Positions 1,646-19,107 of a DNA stretch of 21,702 nucleotides are shown piece by piece. The DNA lies in assembly GCA_030619245.1 (NCBI GenBank), contig JAUXBS010000001.1:1-21702 (forward strand), written 5' to 3'. A model generated the notes under the pieces. The model saw only the letters and a list, made by a program, of their open reading frames with translations, was not told the origin of the DNA and ran no database searches. Source of the DNA: Clostridia bacterium. GTDB lineage: Bacteria > UBA6262 > WVXT01 > JAUXBS01. Numbering within the stretch: the first letter of the stretch is position 1; the number at the start of each line of letters is the position of its first letter. Made by a program: the position numbers and the translations under genes.

Positions 1646-3622
1646 ATGAAAAAGAAAATATTTATAACTTTATTAATGATTATAATGGTCTTGAAAGGGT
1701 TTGCGTTTGCCCAAATAGAGGCAGAGCAACCGATAGCGGAAGAGCCGGCAGTGACAGAAGAAGTTACGGAAGAAACTGCTGTTGGTGAAGAAGAAAAGTC
1801 AGGAGAGGGAGTTCCTAAAGAAGAAGTTGCAGTGGAAGAGCCGGCAGTGGCAGAGCCGGCAGTGGCAGAGCCGGCAGTGGCAGAGGAAATAAAGGAAGGG
1901 AAACCGGCTATAGCCATACAGGACTTCAATGCTCAGGGTGTTTCCAGCTCAGAGGCTGCTTTTATAAGCGATTTTTTCAGAAGCGCCCTGGTGTCCTTAA
2001 AGGCGTTCAGGGTTATTGACAGGGCAAACATGGAAAGGATTCTGGCCGAGCAGGGGTTCCAGCAGACCGGTTGTACCACTCAGGAATGCGCTGTCCGGAT
2101 GGGAAGGCTTTTAAATGTTAAAAATATTGTATCCGGTAATTTCGGCAAATTAGGCGAATTGTACCAGATGACCGTAAAGGTTGTGAATGTTGAATCAGGA
2201 GAGATAATATATACTGACAGCGCAAGCTGCCCATCTACGGATGAACTGCAGTTAAAGACAGGGGAACTGGCATCAAAAATGGCAGCTGCAATAGGAGTGA
2301 TTCCTGAAGAAAAGCCGGAACCAGAGAAGGAACCTGTCAAAAAGGAAATTACTGAAAAGGAAGTTGAATCCGAAACGGTAAATAGGTTTAGAGTGCCTGA
2401 GTTTCCCGAAGATGAGTTTGAACCGCCTGTTAGATTTGAAAGGGTTGGAAGGCCCCCGGTTTTTGCGAGAGAGCCGGAGAAGGGAGGCATTGCGCCGTAT
2501 TATTCTTTCCAGTTCAGTGAAGGGATGGCGTTTCCTGCAATTTCCTCGGGTTCGGTAAGTAGTGACTGGTTTTTTGCTTCAAACCTGGTAAACGACGCAG
2601 GATTTATTCTGAAGCCGTCAGAAAGGTATTCCCTCATGGTTTTCTATGAGTTGAAGTATACAGGCCCCGGCCTTGAGAGGCAGGAAGGCAGGGTCTTTTC
2701 CGAGAAAACGATTGACCATATAATGTTCGGGCAGTTACAAATCGGTATTACGGACAGGTTGAAGCTAAAAGTGGTGCGTAATTATATGACTGAGTTACAG
2801 AGGTCCGGTACAGACGAGGAATGGACAACAGGTATGTATAATTTCAACCGCACCGGGACAGATATAAGGATGGAACTGAGTAATGTGCTGGGAGGTTATA
2901 AATTCTCCATGGGATTGCAGAGGAATTACCTCAGTTTCCCGAACTATTTTAACCCGATAATACAGGCCCAGATGGGGGCAGCGTTCAGTGAAGCGGGTGG
3001 TTTCCAGGACCAGATTGCCTATGCAGGCGTGATAAGCCTTACGGGGAAGAACCTCAGGATAACCTGGAAGCATGAAATACAGGATTATGAAAAGCAGAAA
3101 GTTATATGTTCTAGTGGAACGTACAGTGACACGTTGCTTCAACAAGACAAAAGCTCGGCGTTGAATATATCCGCAAGACTGGGGAGAAGGTTCTCTGTCA
3201 GTCCCGTGTTAATTTTAAAGAAGAAGTCCTCAAATCAGAATTACCTGCACTTTGAAGACTTTCTGGATATAAGCCCGGATTTCCAGGCCGAGTACTACAA
3301 TTATATCCAGGGAAGTATTTCAACGGTAGTAAGGTGGAGGATATTCCCGGAACTTGAGTTATTCTGCGTTCCGAGGTATGATAGGAGATTATATACCTCA
3401 AGGAATCCGAGAGATGTGAATAACATTTTCCTGACACGTTCGCACCAGAGGAACAATGCAATAATAGTTTCAGGCGGGTTTACACGTTTCTATGATAAGG
3501 TTTCAAGTTGTTCGGTTTATTATACTTATGTAAAGCAGGAATCCAATATGAAATATGAAAAATACACGCCGTATAACTACACAGGCCAGTACTTCGGTAT
3601 AAGGTTTAACTTTACTTTCTAA
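1646..3622 (+). CDS. CsgG/LpoB-like domain fused to a putative outer-membrane beta-barrel
   Basis: The 658-residue product starts with a signal peptide (MKKKIFITLLMIIMVLKGFAFA). Residues about 23-85 are a Glu/Pro/Ala/Val linker with repeats of EPAVA. Residues 86 to about 218 match the CsgG/LpoB-like fold: IAIQDFNAQG, VIDRANMERILAEQ, then TGCTTQECA (Cys143 and Cys148), GRLLNVKNIVSGNFGK and VKVVNVESGEI. A second acidic and Pro-rich linker follows to about residue 285. The remaining 370 or so residues alternate in beta-strand fashion and end YFGIRFNFTF, a typical barrel C-terminus. CsgG-type domains act in the periplasm in secretion or as regulators of cell-wall enzymes. No lipobox cysteine is visible, so the barrel rather than a lipid may anchor the protein. 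It follows the preceding barrel-like gene by 3 bases. The domain call is confident; the cellular role is not known. Confidence 0.75.
   Translation: MKKKIFITLLMIIMVLKGFAFAQIEAEQPIAEEPAVTEEVTEETAVGEEEKSGEGVPKEEVAVEEPAVAEPAVAEPAVAEEIKEGKPAIAIQDFNAQGVSSSEAAFISDFFRSALVSLKAFRVIDRANMERILAEQGFQQTGCTTQECAVRMGRLLNVKNIVSGNFGKLGELYQMTVKVVNVESGEIIYTDSASCPSTDELQLKTGELASKMAAAIGVIPEEKPEPEKEPVKKEITEKEVESETVNRFRVPEFPEDEFEPPVRFERVGRPPVFAREPEKGGIAPYYSFQFSEGMAFPAISSGSVSSDWFFASNLVNDAGFILKPSERYSLMVFYELKYTGPGLERQEGRVFSEKTIDHIMFGQLQIGITDRLKLKVVRNYMTELQRSGTDEEWTTGMYNFNRTGTDIRMELSNVLGGYKFSMGLQRNYLSFPNYFNPIIQAQMGAAFSEAGGFQDQIAYAGVISLTGKNLRITWKHEIQDYEKQKVICSSGTYSDTLLQQDKSSALNISARLGRRFSVSPVLILKKKSSNQNYLHFEDFLDISPDFQAEYYNYIQGSISTVVRWRIFPELELFCVPRYDRRLYTSRNPRDVNNIFLTRSHQRNNAIIVSGGFTRFYDKVSSCSVYYTYVKQESNMKYEKYTPYNYTGQYFGIRFNFTF
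1838..1882 (+). repeat. Three perfect 15-base tandem repeats in the linker
   Basis: Unit GAGCCGGCAGTGGCA occurs three times in a row (1838-1852, 1853-1867, 1868-1882) and encodes EPAVA. A related unit lies at 1742-1756. Being in frame, copy-number change would only lengthen or shorten the linker between the signal peptide and the CsgG-like domain. Confidence 0.9.
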
Positions 3623-10903: not shown

Positions 10904-11905
10904 ATGAAGTCCAAAGAAAGAATTATAGTAGAAGAAATAGGGTGTGATGAAGAGCAGGCGAAATTATCACTGCGGGAAAGTAGTGATAACCTTCAAAAAG
11001 CAATAAAGTCAATAGCATCCACCTTTAAATTTATCGGGGTTATTAAAGGCAAGTTCATATGTGAAGATATCAACATGTATGGCTTGTTTATTGTAATTGT
11101 TAATTTACGGAAAGAGATTATTATACGGCAGGCAGCTGTTGTGACTAATAATCCGGCAATCTATGAAAATGATATGGGGTTGACCTGGCATATTTTTGAA
11201 AAACGCCTGTATGCCCTGCGCCTGCATGAGGGGAGTCTTCATGAAACAACAAGTAAATTTGAACAAAACCTGAACCGGCAGATAAGAAAAAATCATAAAC
11301 AGATTTTCTTCCAGTTGGTAAGAGAAAAAAAGGCGGGGGAATTGGCCGAACTTTTAAAATCCGGCATTTCAAAATCCCTTCCAGGCGCAAGTAACAGGTT
11401 AGTGCTTGAAATAGAGGAATTAAGCCTGAGTCAGTTCAGGGAATTAAGCGATAAGAGTGTTTCTGTTACAGAAAAGAAAAACGATAATAACAATTCCGGC
11501 AGGGAGCTGACCCTGGAAACGGAACTGGCTGAATGTAACGATGATGGTGATTTTGTTGAGGCCGATAAACTTAAGGAAAATGATACGGTTCTGGTTAGTA
11601 TTACGGATAACAGAGATACTGCTCAGTACCTTTCGAAACTTCTTGGGGGGAGGAAAAGGGATTCTATAATTCCACTGGCTGCAACGATTCAGAAAGTTGA
11701 TTGTGAGGGGAATAATCTTACTGTCGATATGAGGTTTGGCCCGGGGATTACAGGAAGGGCGCTGGTCAATAAGAAAACAAGAGTAAGAATAGTAAAAAGC
11801 CATTTTAAAAATGCTGTCAGACGAAGGATAATAATATGGTTCACAGTAGCATCGGTTATTGCAGTAGGAATAGTTTATTTTGTTCTGAAGATAGTGGTAG
11901 ATTAA
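10904..11905 (+). CDS. Unknown protein with N-terminal UBA/EF-Ts-N-like region and C-terminal membrane anchor
   Basis: The 333-residue product starts 14 bases after xerC. Residues about 7-37 (VEEIGCDEEQAKLSLRES, then AIKSI) align without gaps to the UBA-like N-domain of EF-Ts encoded 1.9 kb downstream: the G-C, K, L, E and K-A positions agree. The middle part contains amphipathic helices and a strand-rich region (MYGLFIVIVNLRKEIIIRQA). After a low-complexity Lys/Asn linker near 185-200, a compact domain follows (VLVSITDNRDTAQYLSKLLGG; IQKVDCEGNNLTVDMRFGPG; ALVNKKTRVRIV). The end is a basic stretch and one hydrophobic segment (IIIWFTVASVIAVGIVYFVL, about 310-329), so the protein is probably tail-anchored with its bulk in the cytoplasm. 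No signal peptide is seen. I do not recognise the full-length family and assign no function. Other bacteria often have hslV-hslU in this position. Confidence 0.75.
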   Translation: MKSKERIIVEEIGCDEEQAKLSLRESSDNLQKAIKSIASTFKFIGVIKGKFICEDINMYGLFIVIVNLRKEIIIRQAAVVTNNPAIYENDMGLTWHIFEKRLYALRLHEGSLHETTSKFEQNLNRQIRKNHKQIFFQLVREKKAGELAELLKSGISKSLPGASNRLVLEIEELSLSQFRELSDKSVSVTEKKNDNNNSGRELTLETELAECNDDGDFVEADKLKENDTVLVSITDNRDTAQYLSKLLGGRKRDSIIPLAATIQKVDCEGNNLTVDMRFGPGITGRALVNKKTRVRIVKSHFKNAVRRRIIIWFTVASVIAVGIVYFVLKIVVD

Positions 11906-15169: not shown

Positions 15170-15907
15170 ATGAAAAAAGAAGAATTGATATCACGGGTGG
15201 ATAAAAACAAACTCCCACGGCATATTGCGATTATTATGGATGGTAATGGGAGGTGGGCAAAGAAGAAGAAGCTTCCTAAGATTATGGGCCACAGGCAGGG
15301 AGTGAAGGCGGTAAGGAAAACAATAAAAGCCTGTGGTGAAATCGGGGTGGAAGTGCTGACATTATATACTTTTTCCACAGAAAACTGGAAGCGTTCATCG
15401 GGTGAAGTGAGCGCTCTGATGAGTTTATTGTCCGGGACAGTAAAAAAAGAAGCAAGGAAACTGAAAGACAATAATGTAAAACTGATTATATCAGGGGATA
15501 TTGAAAAACTTAAGCCCGCATTGCAGAAGCTGCTAAAAGAAACAATGACAATCACCAGGGACAGTACGGGACTTGTTTTAAATATTGCATTGAATTACGG
15601 CGGGAGGCAGGAGATTGTACATGCCTGTAAAAGAATAGTCAGGGATGTCCGGGATAAAAAAATAAAAGCAGGTAATATTGATGAGGGTTTATTTTCAGAT
15701 TACCTGTTTACAGCAGGGCTGCCTGACCCTGAGCTTTTAATAAGGACGAGTGGTGAGTTGCGTATAAGCAACTTCCTGTTGTATCAAATAGCGTATTCGG
15801 AGATATATGTAACGAAAGTGTTATGGCCGGATTTTAATGAGAAACACCTTGTTGAGGCCATTGTTGATTTTCAAAACAGAGAACGGCGTTTCGGAAGTTC
15901 ATTATGA
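15170..15907 (+). CDS. uppS: Undecaprenyl diphosphate synthase (cis-prenyltransferase)
   Basis: UppS adds isopentenyl units in cis to farnesyl diphosphate to make the C55 lipid carrier used in peptidoglycan and glycan assembly. The 245-residue product has all family motifs: HIAIIMDGNGRWAKKKKLPK (catalytic Asp24), GHRQGVKAVR, LTLYTFSTENWKR, LNIALNYGGRQEI, GLPDPELLIRTSGELRISNF, LLYQIAYSEIY and WPDFNEKHL. Ribosome site AGAGGG lies just before the ATG. It is the start of the uppS - cdsA-like - dxr - rseP - ispG set; the cdsA-like gene overlaps its stop by 4 bases (ATGA). Confidence 0.97.
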   Translation: MKKEELISRVDKNKLPRHIAIIMDGNGRWAKKKKLPKIMGHRQGVKAVRKTIKACGEIGVEVLTLYTFSTENWKRSSGEVSALMSLLSGTVKKEARKLKDNNVKLIISGDIEKLKPALQKLLKETMTITRDSTGLVLNIALNYGGRQEIVHACKRIVRDVRDKKIKAGNIDEGLFSDYLFTAGLPDPELLIRTSGELRISNFLLYQIAYSEIYVTKVLWPDFNEKHLVEAIVDFQNRERRFGSSL

Positions 15908-16740
15908 TTACGAATAAATTAAAAACAGCAGTAATTGCCATCCCCTTAATAATCCTGATTATCAACTGGAGTTCAGTAAGTTTTCTCATCCTGGTACTGG
16001 CAGTTGTCATTATGGGGCTCCATGAGTTCTATGAACTCATAGAGGACAAAGGATATTACCCGCAGAAGTATTTGGGGATTGCTTGTGGTATATGCCTGAC
16101 CCTTACCATTTTTCTTTTTGAGAGGCGTGTGGATGTTAGAATAACAGGTGTTGTATTGACCGTATTCCTGTTTTTGTTCTTCCTGGTTTCGTTAATAAAA
16201 GAAGATGCGGAAGGAATTATTATTTCCGTTTCAGTATCCCTGCTGGGTGTATTTTATGTTGCCTGGACTATTTCTCATTCAATATTGCTCAGGGATATGA
16301 GGCCTTATGGAAGGAGTTTCATTTACCTGCTGCTGTTTACAGTATGGTCGATTAACCTGCTTATGAACTGGCTGGAGAGGAAGCCTGAAAGAAAAAGGAA
16401 AAACAAAGCAGGCATTAACCTTTACGTCCGGCTGCTCGCCGCATCAATCGCAGGCATGGTTTTTGTGTTGATGTGGCAGAAAGTATTTGAACTGGAATAC
16501 TTTAAGCTCTGGGCTGTAAATCTCGGATTCCTGCCTCTTTACCGTTCTTTGATTGTCGGGTTAATTCTTGGAATAAGCAGCCAGATTGGATACCTGGTTA
16601 ATTCCCGGATAAGCGGGAATGCCGGTATTGGAGATTCAAGAGGGTTGTTCCCTGGGTACGGGGGTGTGCTGGAAAACATAAGTACTTTCCAGTTCAGTAT
16701 CCCTTTAACATATTATTTTATCAGATTCTTTGTTGTTTAA
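15904..16740 (+). CDS. Divergent CdsA-family membrane protein lacking the catalytic signature
   Basis: The 278-residue product has about eight hydrophobic segments and sits in the standard cdsA place, overlapping uppS by 4 bases. The start (LKTAVIAIPLIILII; GLHEFYELIEDKGYYPQKY) and end (ILGISSQIGYLV; NAGIGDSRGLFPGYGGVLEN) align with CdsA, the CTP:phosphatidate cytidylyltransferase. However, the signature residues are changed: the QLGD-type Asp is Tyr230, KR is Ser237-Gly238, the second Lys is Gly243, the His of PGHGG is Tyr252, and DR-x-D is Glu257-Asn258-x-Ser260. Only Asp244 of the set remains. In the middle, WSINLLMNWLERK replaces the W-x-x-DTGAY region, and no SPKKT motif is visible. The frame is intact with no stop codon. 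It is most likely a non-catalytic or repurposed CdsA relative; a true CdsA should be encoded elsewhere. Confidence 0.8.
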   Translation: MITNKLKTAVIAIPLIILIINWSSVSFLILVLAVVIMGLHEFYELIEDKGYYPQKYLGIACGICLTLTIFLFERRVDVRITGVVLTVFLFLFFLVSLIKEDAEGIIISVSVSLLGVFYVAWTISHSILLRDMRPYGRSFIYLLLFTVWSINLLMNWLERKPERKRKNKAGINLYVRLLAASIAGMVFVLMWQKVFELEYFKLWAVNLGFLPLYRSLIVGLILGISSQIGYLVNSRISGNAGIGDSRGLFPGYGGVLENISTFQFSIPLTYYFIRFFVV

Positions 16741-16741
16741 G

Positions 16742-16853
16742 GGGTCAGGTCTCAACATGATACAAAAAAGGGTCAGGCCTTAACACGATACAAAAAAGTT
16801 GTAAATGCTGAGCGAAGTCGAAGTAGGTCAGGCCTTAACACTTTAGCAAAAAA
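16742..16853 (+). repeat. Three-copy REP-like repeat array with a dispersed-repeat insert
   Basis: Three direct repeats of about 28 bases, GGTCAGG(T/C)CT(C/T)AACA ... CAAAAAA, lie at 16742-16769, 16770-16797 (abutting) and 16825-16853. Between copies 2 and 3 lies GCTGAGCGAAGTCGAAG (16807-16823), a type of short repeat I recall as scattered in many bacterial genomes. The GGGTCAGG(T/C)CT core resembles repeats linked to TnpA_REP (Y1) transposases, but no transposase is in the window. The array fills the whole gap between the cdsA-like gene and dxr. Confidence 0.75.
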
Positions 16854-16859
16854 GGGCTA

Positions 16860-18032
16860 ATGAAAAGAAAAATAAAAAAGATTATTATACTTGGTTCAAC
16901 GGGTTCTATAGGGATAAATACGCTTGACGTGATAAAGGGGCTTGGAAGCGGTTTTAAAGTAATCGGCCTGGGAGCGGGGAGGAATATTAACAGGTTCATC
17001 AGGCAAATAAACGAGTTTAAACCGGAAGTTGTCGTTCTCGGTGATGAATCAAAGAAGAAGGAGTTTGAAAAAAGATTAAAGTCCATTAAATACAAACCTT
17101 CAAAGGTTCTTTACGGCATGCAGGGTTTGATTTCTCTTGCCGGGGACAGCCGCGCAAATTTCCTGATATCCGCTATGGTTGGAGCGGTAGGGCTTGTCCC
17201 TACGCTTGAGGCGATAAAGACAGGCAAGGATATTGCGTTAGCCAACAAGGAACCGCTTGTCATTGCGGGGGATATAATTATGAGGAGCGCCAGGAAGCAC
17301 GGTGTGAATATACTGCCTCTTGACAGTGAGCACAGCGCGGTATTTCAATGCCTGCAGGGAGCTGCTCCCGGTAGTGTAAAGAGGATAATCCTTACGGCTT
17401 CGGGGGGGCCTTTCTACAGGTATCCGAATACAAAATTAAGGAAGGTTACCGTGGAAGAAGCCCTTAATCATCCTACGTGGCGGATGGGGGAAAAAATAAC
17501 AGTTGACTCTGCCAATTTAATGAATAAGGGGCTGGAAATAATAGAAGCGCGCCACCTGTTCGGTATTGAGCTGGACAGGATAGATATTTTAATTCACGCG
17601 CAGTCTGTTGTGCATTCAATGGTGGAGTTTGTTGATGGTTCCATTCTTGCCCAACTGGGTATTCCTGATATGCGTGTTCCCATTCAGTATGCGCTAACGT
17701 ATCCGGGGAGGAGGAAGAATAACCTGAGAAGCCTGAACCTTGCGGAATACGGCAAGCTGACTTTTGAAAAGCCGGATTTTGAAAGGTTTCCCTGCCTGGG
17801 CCTGGCTATGCGCGCGGGTAAAAGCGGCGGTACGGCGCCGGTGGTACTGAACGCCGCGAATGAGGTTGCGGTACAGGCGTTTCTTTCCGGCAGGATAAAG
17901 TTTGTGGATATACCTGTTATGGTAAGGACAATGATGGATAAACATAAAGTAATCAGGAAGCCGTCGCTTGAGGACATATTAGCGATGGACAAGCAGGTAA
18001 GGGATGTTCTGGAATCAAAAATAATAAATTGA
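16860..18032 (+). CDS. dxr: 1-deoxy-D-xylulose 5-phosphate reductoisomerase
   Basis: Dxr converts DXP to MEP with NADPH, the first committed step of the non-mevalonate isoprenoid pathway. The 390-residue product has the NADPH fold at the start (IIILGSTGSIGINTLDVI), the substrate and metal motifs ALANKEPLVIAG, LPLDSEHSAVFQCLQG, LTASGGPF, HPTWRMGEKITVDSANLMNK and GLEIIEARHLF, then VHSMVEFVDGSILAQLG and PDMRVPIQYALTYPGR. The usual Ser of NKES is Pro here, a small change next to a substrate-binding Lys. The ATG lies 6 bases after the last A-run of the REP-like array, so the sequence AAAGGG that may act as ribosome site comes from the repeat edge. ispG of the same pathway is two genes downstream. 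Confidence 0.96.
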   Translation: MKRKIKKIIILGSTGSIGINTLDVIKGLGSGFKVIGLGAGRNINRFIRQINEFKPEVVVLGDESKKKEFEKRLKSIKYKPSKVLYGMQGLISLAGDSRANFLISAMVGAVGLVPTLEAIKTGKDIALANKEPLVIAGDIIMRSARKHGVNILPLDSEHSAVFQCLQGAAPGSVKRIILTASGGPFYRYPNTKLRKVTVEEALNHPTWRMGEKITVDSANLMNKGLEIIEARHLFGIELDRIDILIHAQSVVHSMVEFVDGSILAQLGIPDMRVPIQYALTYPGRRKNNLRSLNLAEYGKLTFEKPDFERFPCLGLAMRAGKSGGTAPVVLNAANEVAVQAFLSGRIKFVDIPVMVRTMMDKHKVIRKPSLEDILAMDKQVRDVLESKIIN

Positions 18033-18051: not shown

Positions 18052-19107
18052 ATGGATATTTACGGTATACTGATTAAAGCAGCGGGTTTCATCGTTACTT
18101 TCGGGCTTGTTGTATTTTTCCACGAAATGGGGCATTTTCTTGGCGCCATATGGATGGGAGTCAGGGTTGAAACTTTCTCCCTTGGTTTCGGAAAGGAGTT
18201 ATTCAGTTTTACGAGAGGAAAGACAAAGTTCAGGATTGCGGCTTTTCCCCTGGGCGGGTACTGTAAAATGGCCGGTGAGAACAAAGAGGATGAGGTAAAA
18301 GGTGAGCCGGATGAGTTCCTTTCAAAGAAATGGTGGAGGAGGTTAATAATTGTTTTCTCCGGGCCTTTCATGAATTTTGTTCTTGCCTGGCTGGTTTTTA
18401 CGATGATGATGACTTTTATAGGCATGGATGTTCCCGTCAAAGACGCGGTAGTAGGTGGTTTTCCCGGGGTTTCACCCGCAAGGGAAGCCGGAATCATGAT
18501 TGGCGATAAGGTGGTTAGTATAGACGGACTGGAGGTTGAAAGCTGGAAGCATATGGCTGAGACCATTCATGGGAAACCGGAAGAACCCCTTGAAATGAAA
18601 ATAATTAGAGGGGAAAAGGAAATGGCTATAACGGTTATTCCCAAACGTAATGAGGAAAGCAAGGTTTCATTGATAGGCATCACTCCAGAGTTTGAGAAGG
18701 AGAAGTCTAATATTTTTACCTCGTTATGGGAATCCATTAAACGGGTAGGGGCAATTATTTACATGACTTTACATTCCCTGTGGCTTATGATAGCCGGAAA
18801 AGTCAAGCCCGAGCTTGCGGGCCCTATAGGTATAATCACTCTTGTCGGGCAGGCAGTAAGCCTGGGAATATCATCTTTTCTGAATATGATTGCCGTGATA
18901 AGCATAATGCTGGGTATATTTAACCTTCTCCCCATCCCGATTGTTGACGGCGGTGTTATAGCGCTGTTATTGGTAGAAGCGGTAAGGAAAAAGCCGCTGC
19001 CGGATAAATTTATTGAATTGCTTCAGAAAGTAGGTTTTGCGCTGATAATGATGCTTGTGGTGTTTGCAACCTACCAGGACATATTAAGGATGTTTACTAA
19101 AAAATAA
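18052..19107 (+). CDS. rseP: Site-2 intramembrane metalloprotease (RseP family)
   Basis: RseP-type proteases cut membrane-embedded anti-sigma factors and leftover signal peptides within the membrane, using zinc. The 351-residue product has the HExxH motif in the first membrane segment (FFHEMGHFLGA; His24, Glu25, His28), a GFG motif (SLGFGKELF), a conserved ...PLGGYCKMAGE loop, and one PDZ domain (GFPGVSPAREAGIMIGDKVV to about residue 200). Later membrane segments follow, with NLLPIPIVDGG giving the third zinc ligand Asp. E. coli RseP has two PDZ domains; one is common in other phyla. An AAGGGG ribosome site lies just before the ATG. It starts 19 bases after dxr and is followed without a gap by ispG. 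Confidence 0.94.
   Translation: MDIYGILIKAAGFIVTFGLVVFFHEMGHFLGAIWMGVRVETFSLGFGKELFSFTRGKTKFRIAAFPLGGYCKMAGENKEDEVKGEPDEFLSKKWWRRLIIVFSGPFMNFVLAWLVFTMMMTFIGMDVPVKDAVVGGFPGVSPAREAGIMIGDKVVSIDGLEVESWKHMAETIHGKPEEPLEMKIIRGEKEMAITVIPKRNEESKVSLIGITPEFEKEKSNIFTSLWESIKRVGAIIYMTLHSLWLMIAGKVKPELAGPIGIITLVGQAVSLGISSFLNMIAVISIMLGIFNLLPIPIVDGGVIALLLVEAVRKKPLPDKFIELLQKVGFALIMMLVVFATYQDILRMFTKK

Follow-up and report, generated by a model that had tools for sequence, protein, structure and literature searches.

A putative CdsA pseudoenzyme retained between uppS and dxr in a Clostridia bacterium with a second, intact CdsA

In membrane pseudoenzymes such as the inactive rhomboids, the catalytic residues are lost, the fold is kept and binding to a partner is expected. 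CdsA (CDP-diacylglycerol synthase) is described as making the precursor of the major bacterial phospholipids and as essential in E. coli (PMC7018664). The same account gives D219 and D249 as the metal dyad of TmCdsA, KDx5PGHGGx2DRxD as the signature of an active synthase, and the M domain (TM2-5) as the dimerisation part through which the TmCdsA dimer forms; it also mentions possible heterodimers of human CDS1 and CDS2 (PMC7018664). In E. coli, a working CdsA is accompanied by another member of the family, the paralog YnbB, whose resemblance to CdsA lies in the C-terminal half and which reportedly synthesises CDP-DAG (PMC6362211, PMC7018664). The protein that we describe here differs from YnbB, as it is conserved in the other half and has lost the C-terminal signature. 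It resembles the inactive rhomboids in its loss of catalytic residues and predicted retention of the fold, although the family is different. In the open-licence literature searched, we found no paper joining CdsA or CDP-diacylglycerol synthase with the term "pseudoenzyme", and the text examined there describes no inactive CdsA paralog.

The gene lies in a stretch of 21,702 nucleotides, hereafter the window (contig JAUXBS010000001.1 of a Clostridia bacterium). A first-pass annotation had reported a cdsA-like gene between uppS and dxr, with an intact frame and a 4-base overlap with uppS. ORF positions and the Pfam matches of the neighbours confirm this arrangement: the frame at 15904-16740 (+) starts with ATG and runs for 278 codons with no internal stop, and the overlap spans 15904-15907. 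The three genes are:

15170..15907, + strand: uppS (PF01255), overlapping the next gene by 4 nt, also in the congeneric genome G001
15904..16740, + strand: cdsA-like gene in the uppS-dxr slot, putative pseudoenzyme, product P0001 (278 aa; PF01148), with Y230/S260 in place of D219/D249 of TmCdsA
16860..18032, + strand: dxr, the downstream neighbour

Beyond dxr come an M50 peptidase gene at 18052, then GcpE (ispG), then a class II aminoacyl-tRNA synthetase gene. The slot copy of G001 is likewise followed by dxr and by an M50-like gene (read by eye). Together with the uppS overlap kept there, this would suit a membrane anchor for UppS, Dxr or the M50 protease that works independently of an active CdsA. 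We consider such a scaffold quite unlikely, however, as the gene order is not specific: the same order, again read by eye, surrounds an intact cdsA in the sister family. In the window, the interval from the slot gene to dxr carries three copies of a short repeat, GGTCAGGYCTYAACA, at 16743-16840 (+). This repeat has 10 exact matches over 6 contigs of the genome, against 0 for a reversed control pattern, and 0.07 matches would be expected in the window at up to 2 mismatches. Since G001 has almost no gap, or an overlap, between its slot gene and the dxr frame, the stretch looks like a repeat insertion.

The slot protein is a CdsA homolog by profile. P0001 matches PF01148 with 66.7 bits (E 3.8e-18; cut-off 24), and its relatives P0002, P0003 and the partial P0004 score 79.0, 69.7 and 27.6 bits, whereas the intact CdsA of the same genome reaches 198.9 bits. 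PF01148 is the only Pfam family above cut-off for P0001; no NCBIfam model exceeds its cut-off, the best below it being a phosphatidate cytidylyltransferase model (E 3.5e-9). The predicted structure of P0001 matches TmCdsA (PDB 4q2e, 4q2g), a result partly expected because the alignment behind the model includes intact CdsA proteins. The profile search and the structural comparison, both proposed in the first-pass annotation, thus return a CdsA match with replaced active-site residues and a predicted CdsA fold. The slot copy resembles CdsA in predicted fold, length, N/M/C layout and uppS-dxr locus; it differs in having no metal dyad, no DxGAY and no SPKKS loop, in the loss of much of the C-terminal signature, and in a shift of conservation towards the N/M part. 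P0001 belongs to the CdsA family by homology and predicted fold, yet it lacks the sequence features by which an active CDP-DAG synthase is recognised.

Aligned to the TmCdsA PDB sequence (offset of 20 between the PDB chain and TmCdsA numbering, counted by hand), P0001 has Tyr230 at D219 and Ser260 at D249. The Asp-Asp dyad is absent from all three full-length slot copies, which carry Y230/S260 (P0001), C/C (P0002) and Y/S (P0003). At the position of the KDx5PGHGGx2DRxD signature, P0001 reads GDSRGLFPGYGGVLENIS and does not match. Every signature replacement listed in the first-pass annotation holds against the TmCdsA PDB sequence and the in-phylum alignment: besides Tyr230, these are S237-G238 for KR, G243 for K, Y252 for H and E257-N258-I259-S260 for DRxD. 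The same alignments bear out its statement that the DTGAY and SPKKT regions are beyond recognition (DTGAY or DxGAY and SPKKS here, at about 150-161 and 170-177). The changes of the signature His and of the DRxD Arg are weak evidence alone, the former being Met in the intact-looking P0005-P0026 and the latter Lys in the sister family.

We then considered the 35 columns with an identity of 85% or more across 31 intact CdsA rows (a set lying outside P0005-P0027 and P0030-P0038, and counted without L025, whose frame exceeds 400 aa, and without the partial P0004). P0001 retains 16 of them, and P0002 and P0003 retain 18 each; the three slot copies all retain 13 of the columns and all lack 14, of which 13 lie in the catalytic C part. 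In a leave-one-out comparison, intact rows retain at least 81% of the conserved columns (median 94%), so the loss of residues in the slot copies is not due to chance. Five replacements (K5, N151, M154, R176 and N233) are common to the three copies, which suggests that the active site was lost before these lineages split. K237 and K243 are still present in two of the three. From these residues, the slot copy is probably inactive. A residual or altered cytidylyltransferase activity would agree with family membership, with the fold and with the signature residues that P0002 and P0003 still have in part, but both dyad aspartates and the SPKKS loop are gone from all three copies. Moreover, D222N, the equivalent of a change at D219, is reported in daptomycin-resistant S. 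mitis/oralis, where resistance is tied to loss-of-function mutations of cdsA (PMC7018664). We regard residual activity as very improbable.

The intact CdsA of the sister family was observed to have an extra glycine in the signature (PGGHGG), together with the Lys for Arg of DRxD, in four loci:

L037, 7913-8752: intact CdsA with PGGHGG
L038, 8830-9669: intact CdsA with PGGHGG
L039, 4706-5545: intact CdsA with PGGHGG
L040, 8127-8966: intact CdsA with PGGHGG

As CDP-diacylglycerol is normally essential, the first-pass annotation had predicted a genuine CdsA elsewhere in the genome. This genome (76% complete, 288 contigs) indeed encodes two CdsA proteins, the slot copy and an intact one:

contig C232, 1300-2136: intact CdsA gene of the window's genome, directly after a pgsA-like gene

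In G001 (98% complete), from the same genus, the slot copy on C121 is degenerate (66% identical), and C133 carries an intact copy linked to pgsA. The intact paralog is thus present in both genomes that have a degenerate slot copy, one of these two being only 76% complete. The G001 copies are on short contigs (3737 and 6318 bases), and the two copies never share a contig in either genome; that both genomes have the pair speaks against contamination. The four sister-family genomes, which complete our phylum sample of six, are 83-96% complete and encode one CdsA each, intact and between uppS and dxr. A protein search yielded two further degenerate relatives on short contigs, P0003 (full-length, 55% identity) and P0004 (partial, 160 aa, 78%). 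A contig scan with P0001 as query gave no match; with alignment A1, the sole match was L041, a contig that agrees with that of G001 in length and match. In the genome search, 47 of 60 genomes had a CdsA match, 6 of them in the phylum and 41 outside. The 24 loci inspected from these 41 genomes have a recognisable C-terminal CdsA signature, which varies in a few rows (such as L026 and L032).

In a 41-row tree (L025 cut to its last 300 residues, P0004 left out), the slot copies form one clade (100/100) that groups with the slot copies of the sister family (97/89). This grouping and the shared locus indicate that they are the vertically inherited cdsA of the lineage. The pgsA-linked copies are placed apart from the slot copies. 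AU tests did not reject a single clade of all ten in-phylum sequences (p 0.41), a grouping of slot and pgsA-linked copies (p 0.29) or a grouping of pgsA-linked copies with the sister family (p 0.31). The pgsA-linked copy may result from a duplication within the genus or phylum or have an older or foreign origin, both being compatible with these tests.

Between the window's genome and G001, the slot copy has a pN/pS of 0.28 (0.22-0.35); the intact cdsA has 0.27, the pgsA-like gene 0.28, uppS 0.22 and dxr 0.20. With synonymous sites close to saturation (pS 0.67), dN/dS should lie below these ratios. The dN/dS analysis proposed in the first-pass annotation was thus run as pN/pS on one pair, and its result points to purifying selection. 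Simple simulations without selection left no run out of 400 free of stops in both copies, at each of four divergences from 0.4 to 1.65, while the three full-length slot copies are stop-free with identity down to 55%. The earlier claim of selection rather than decay is supported by the pN/pS, the open frames and these neutral simulations. Three attributes of a pseudoenzyme in the evolutionary sense are found here: catalytic loss in related copies, in the residues of three full-length members; purifying selection, in one pair, P0001 and the G001 copy; and an intact paralog in the same genome, in both genomes. A decaying pseudogene or a translational spacer could account for the loss of family-invariant residues and for the faster C domain, but it is hardly credible given the pN/pS, the three stop-free frames and the shared derived residues. 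The genome is fragmented and incomplete, which might suggest an assembly or sequencing artefact; P0002, P0003 and P0004 come from other sources, however, and this explanation has a negligible likelihood. Decay, artefact and recent loss were set aside on the related degenerate copies, the purifying selection and the neutral simulations.

Conservation is distributed unevenly along the slot copy. The helices are taken from the predicted model, and we set the boundary at codon 135:

15904..16308, + strand (codons 1-135): N domain (TM1) and M domain (TM2-5), 75% identity to the G001 slot copy, the more conserved part
16120..16140, + strand (codons 73-79): charged E-R-R-x-D-V-R motif, invariant in full-length slot copies
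16309..16737, + strand (codons 136-278): former catalytic C domain, 58% identity to the G001 slot copy, signature lost

For the three slot pairs, identities in the N+M and C parts are 0.75/0.58, 0.64/0.46 and 0.60/0.47 (Fisher p 3.5e-3, 3.7e-3 and 4.1e-2, not independent), whereas the intact copies of the window's genome and G001 give 0.64/0.74 (p 0.09). Among 407 intact pairs with 40-85% identity (non-independent, as they share members, weighted to the related proteins P0005-P0026, and without L025 and P0004), the N+M excess has a median of -0.07, is positive in 31 and is at most +0.07. Compared with the intact enzyme of the sister-family genome G002, two slot copies are also closer in N+M (0.44 and 0.42) than in C (0.32 and 0.34; p 0.05 and 0.17), and the pgsA-linked copies show the reverse (0.35/0.57 and 0.37/0.56).

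The C part is not merely a discarded domain, since codons 146-278 have a pN/pS of 0.36 and 9 of its 30 family-conserved columns are kept in all three copies (13 are lost in all three). Judged from these sequence comparisons, the catalytic part appears to be relaxed though not freed, and the N/M part to be held. The full-length slot copies (L025 and P0004 not counted) share 41 invariant residues that none of the 7 in-phylum intact copies has; in the slot motif, E73, R74, R75, D77 and V78 are missing from these intact copies. From the helix count of the model, the motif should lie outside the cytoplasm. The slot protein could also have acquired a new function, for example in binding lipids or nucleotides, in another kind of transfer or hydrolysis, or in moving lipids through the retained cavity. 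The constraint on the C part, the CdsA-like fold of the model and polar residues of the C part that are invariant in, and specific to, the slot copies (including N151, R176, K193, N206, N233 and Q263) speak for this possibility, which we nevertheless find unlikely: PF01148 and no other Pfam family or NCBIfam model was above cut-off, and conservation is lower in the C part than in the N+M part.

We give a probability of about one half to the reading of the slot copy as a retained CdsA pseudoenzyme, with synthesis taken over by the intact pgsA-linked CdsA. The vertically inherited cdsA of the lineage would have become a pseudoenzyme once the CdsA encoded after the pgsA-like gene had taken over CDP-diacylglycerol synthesis, in this presumed order of events. 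The slot copy would then have lost the metal dyad and the substrate loops while remaining under selection, above all in its N-terminal helix and four-helix M domain. Because the membrane fold and the dimerisation domain are kept, the dyad is lost and an intact paralog is present, its most plausible role is that of a non-catalytic subunit or regulator. It probably acts through the N/M membrane domain, pairing through the M domain perhaps with the active CdsA or with itself. Its gene is presumably co-transcribed with uppS and the M50-protease gene, and the protein might tune or position phospholipid synthesis beside the UppS and M50-protease functions. A more specific proposal, which remains speculative and rather unlikely, is a heteromeric CDP-DAG synthase in which the ancestral CdsA is an obligate non-catalytic regulatory subunit of the second CdsA, senses the envelope side via the E-R-R-x-D-V-R loop and keeps phospholipid output in step with undecaprenyl phosphate synthesis. 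If the retained-pseudoenzyme reading holds, a lineage with a dead CdsA at the ancestral locus, in which the dimerisation part is the more conserved, would offer a natural separation of a non-catalytic role from the chemistry, and the pair of slot and intact CdsA makes such a role testable.

Two other genes of the window encode proteins of interest. A 333-aa protein (10904-11905, +), encoded between rpsB and a gene for a tyrosine recombinase, matches no Pfam family above cut-off and has a weak UBA-like start; it shares 44% identity over 303 columns with an equally placed protein in G002. A 658-aa protein (1646-3622, +) contains an LpoB/CsgG-like stretch (LpoB E 7.2e-07), a match which suggests that it is envelope-associated.
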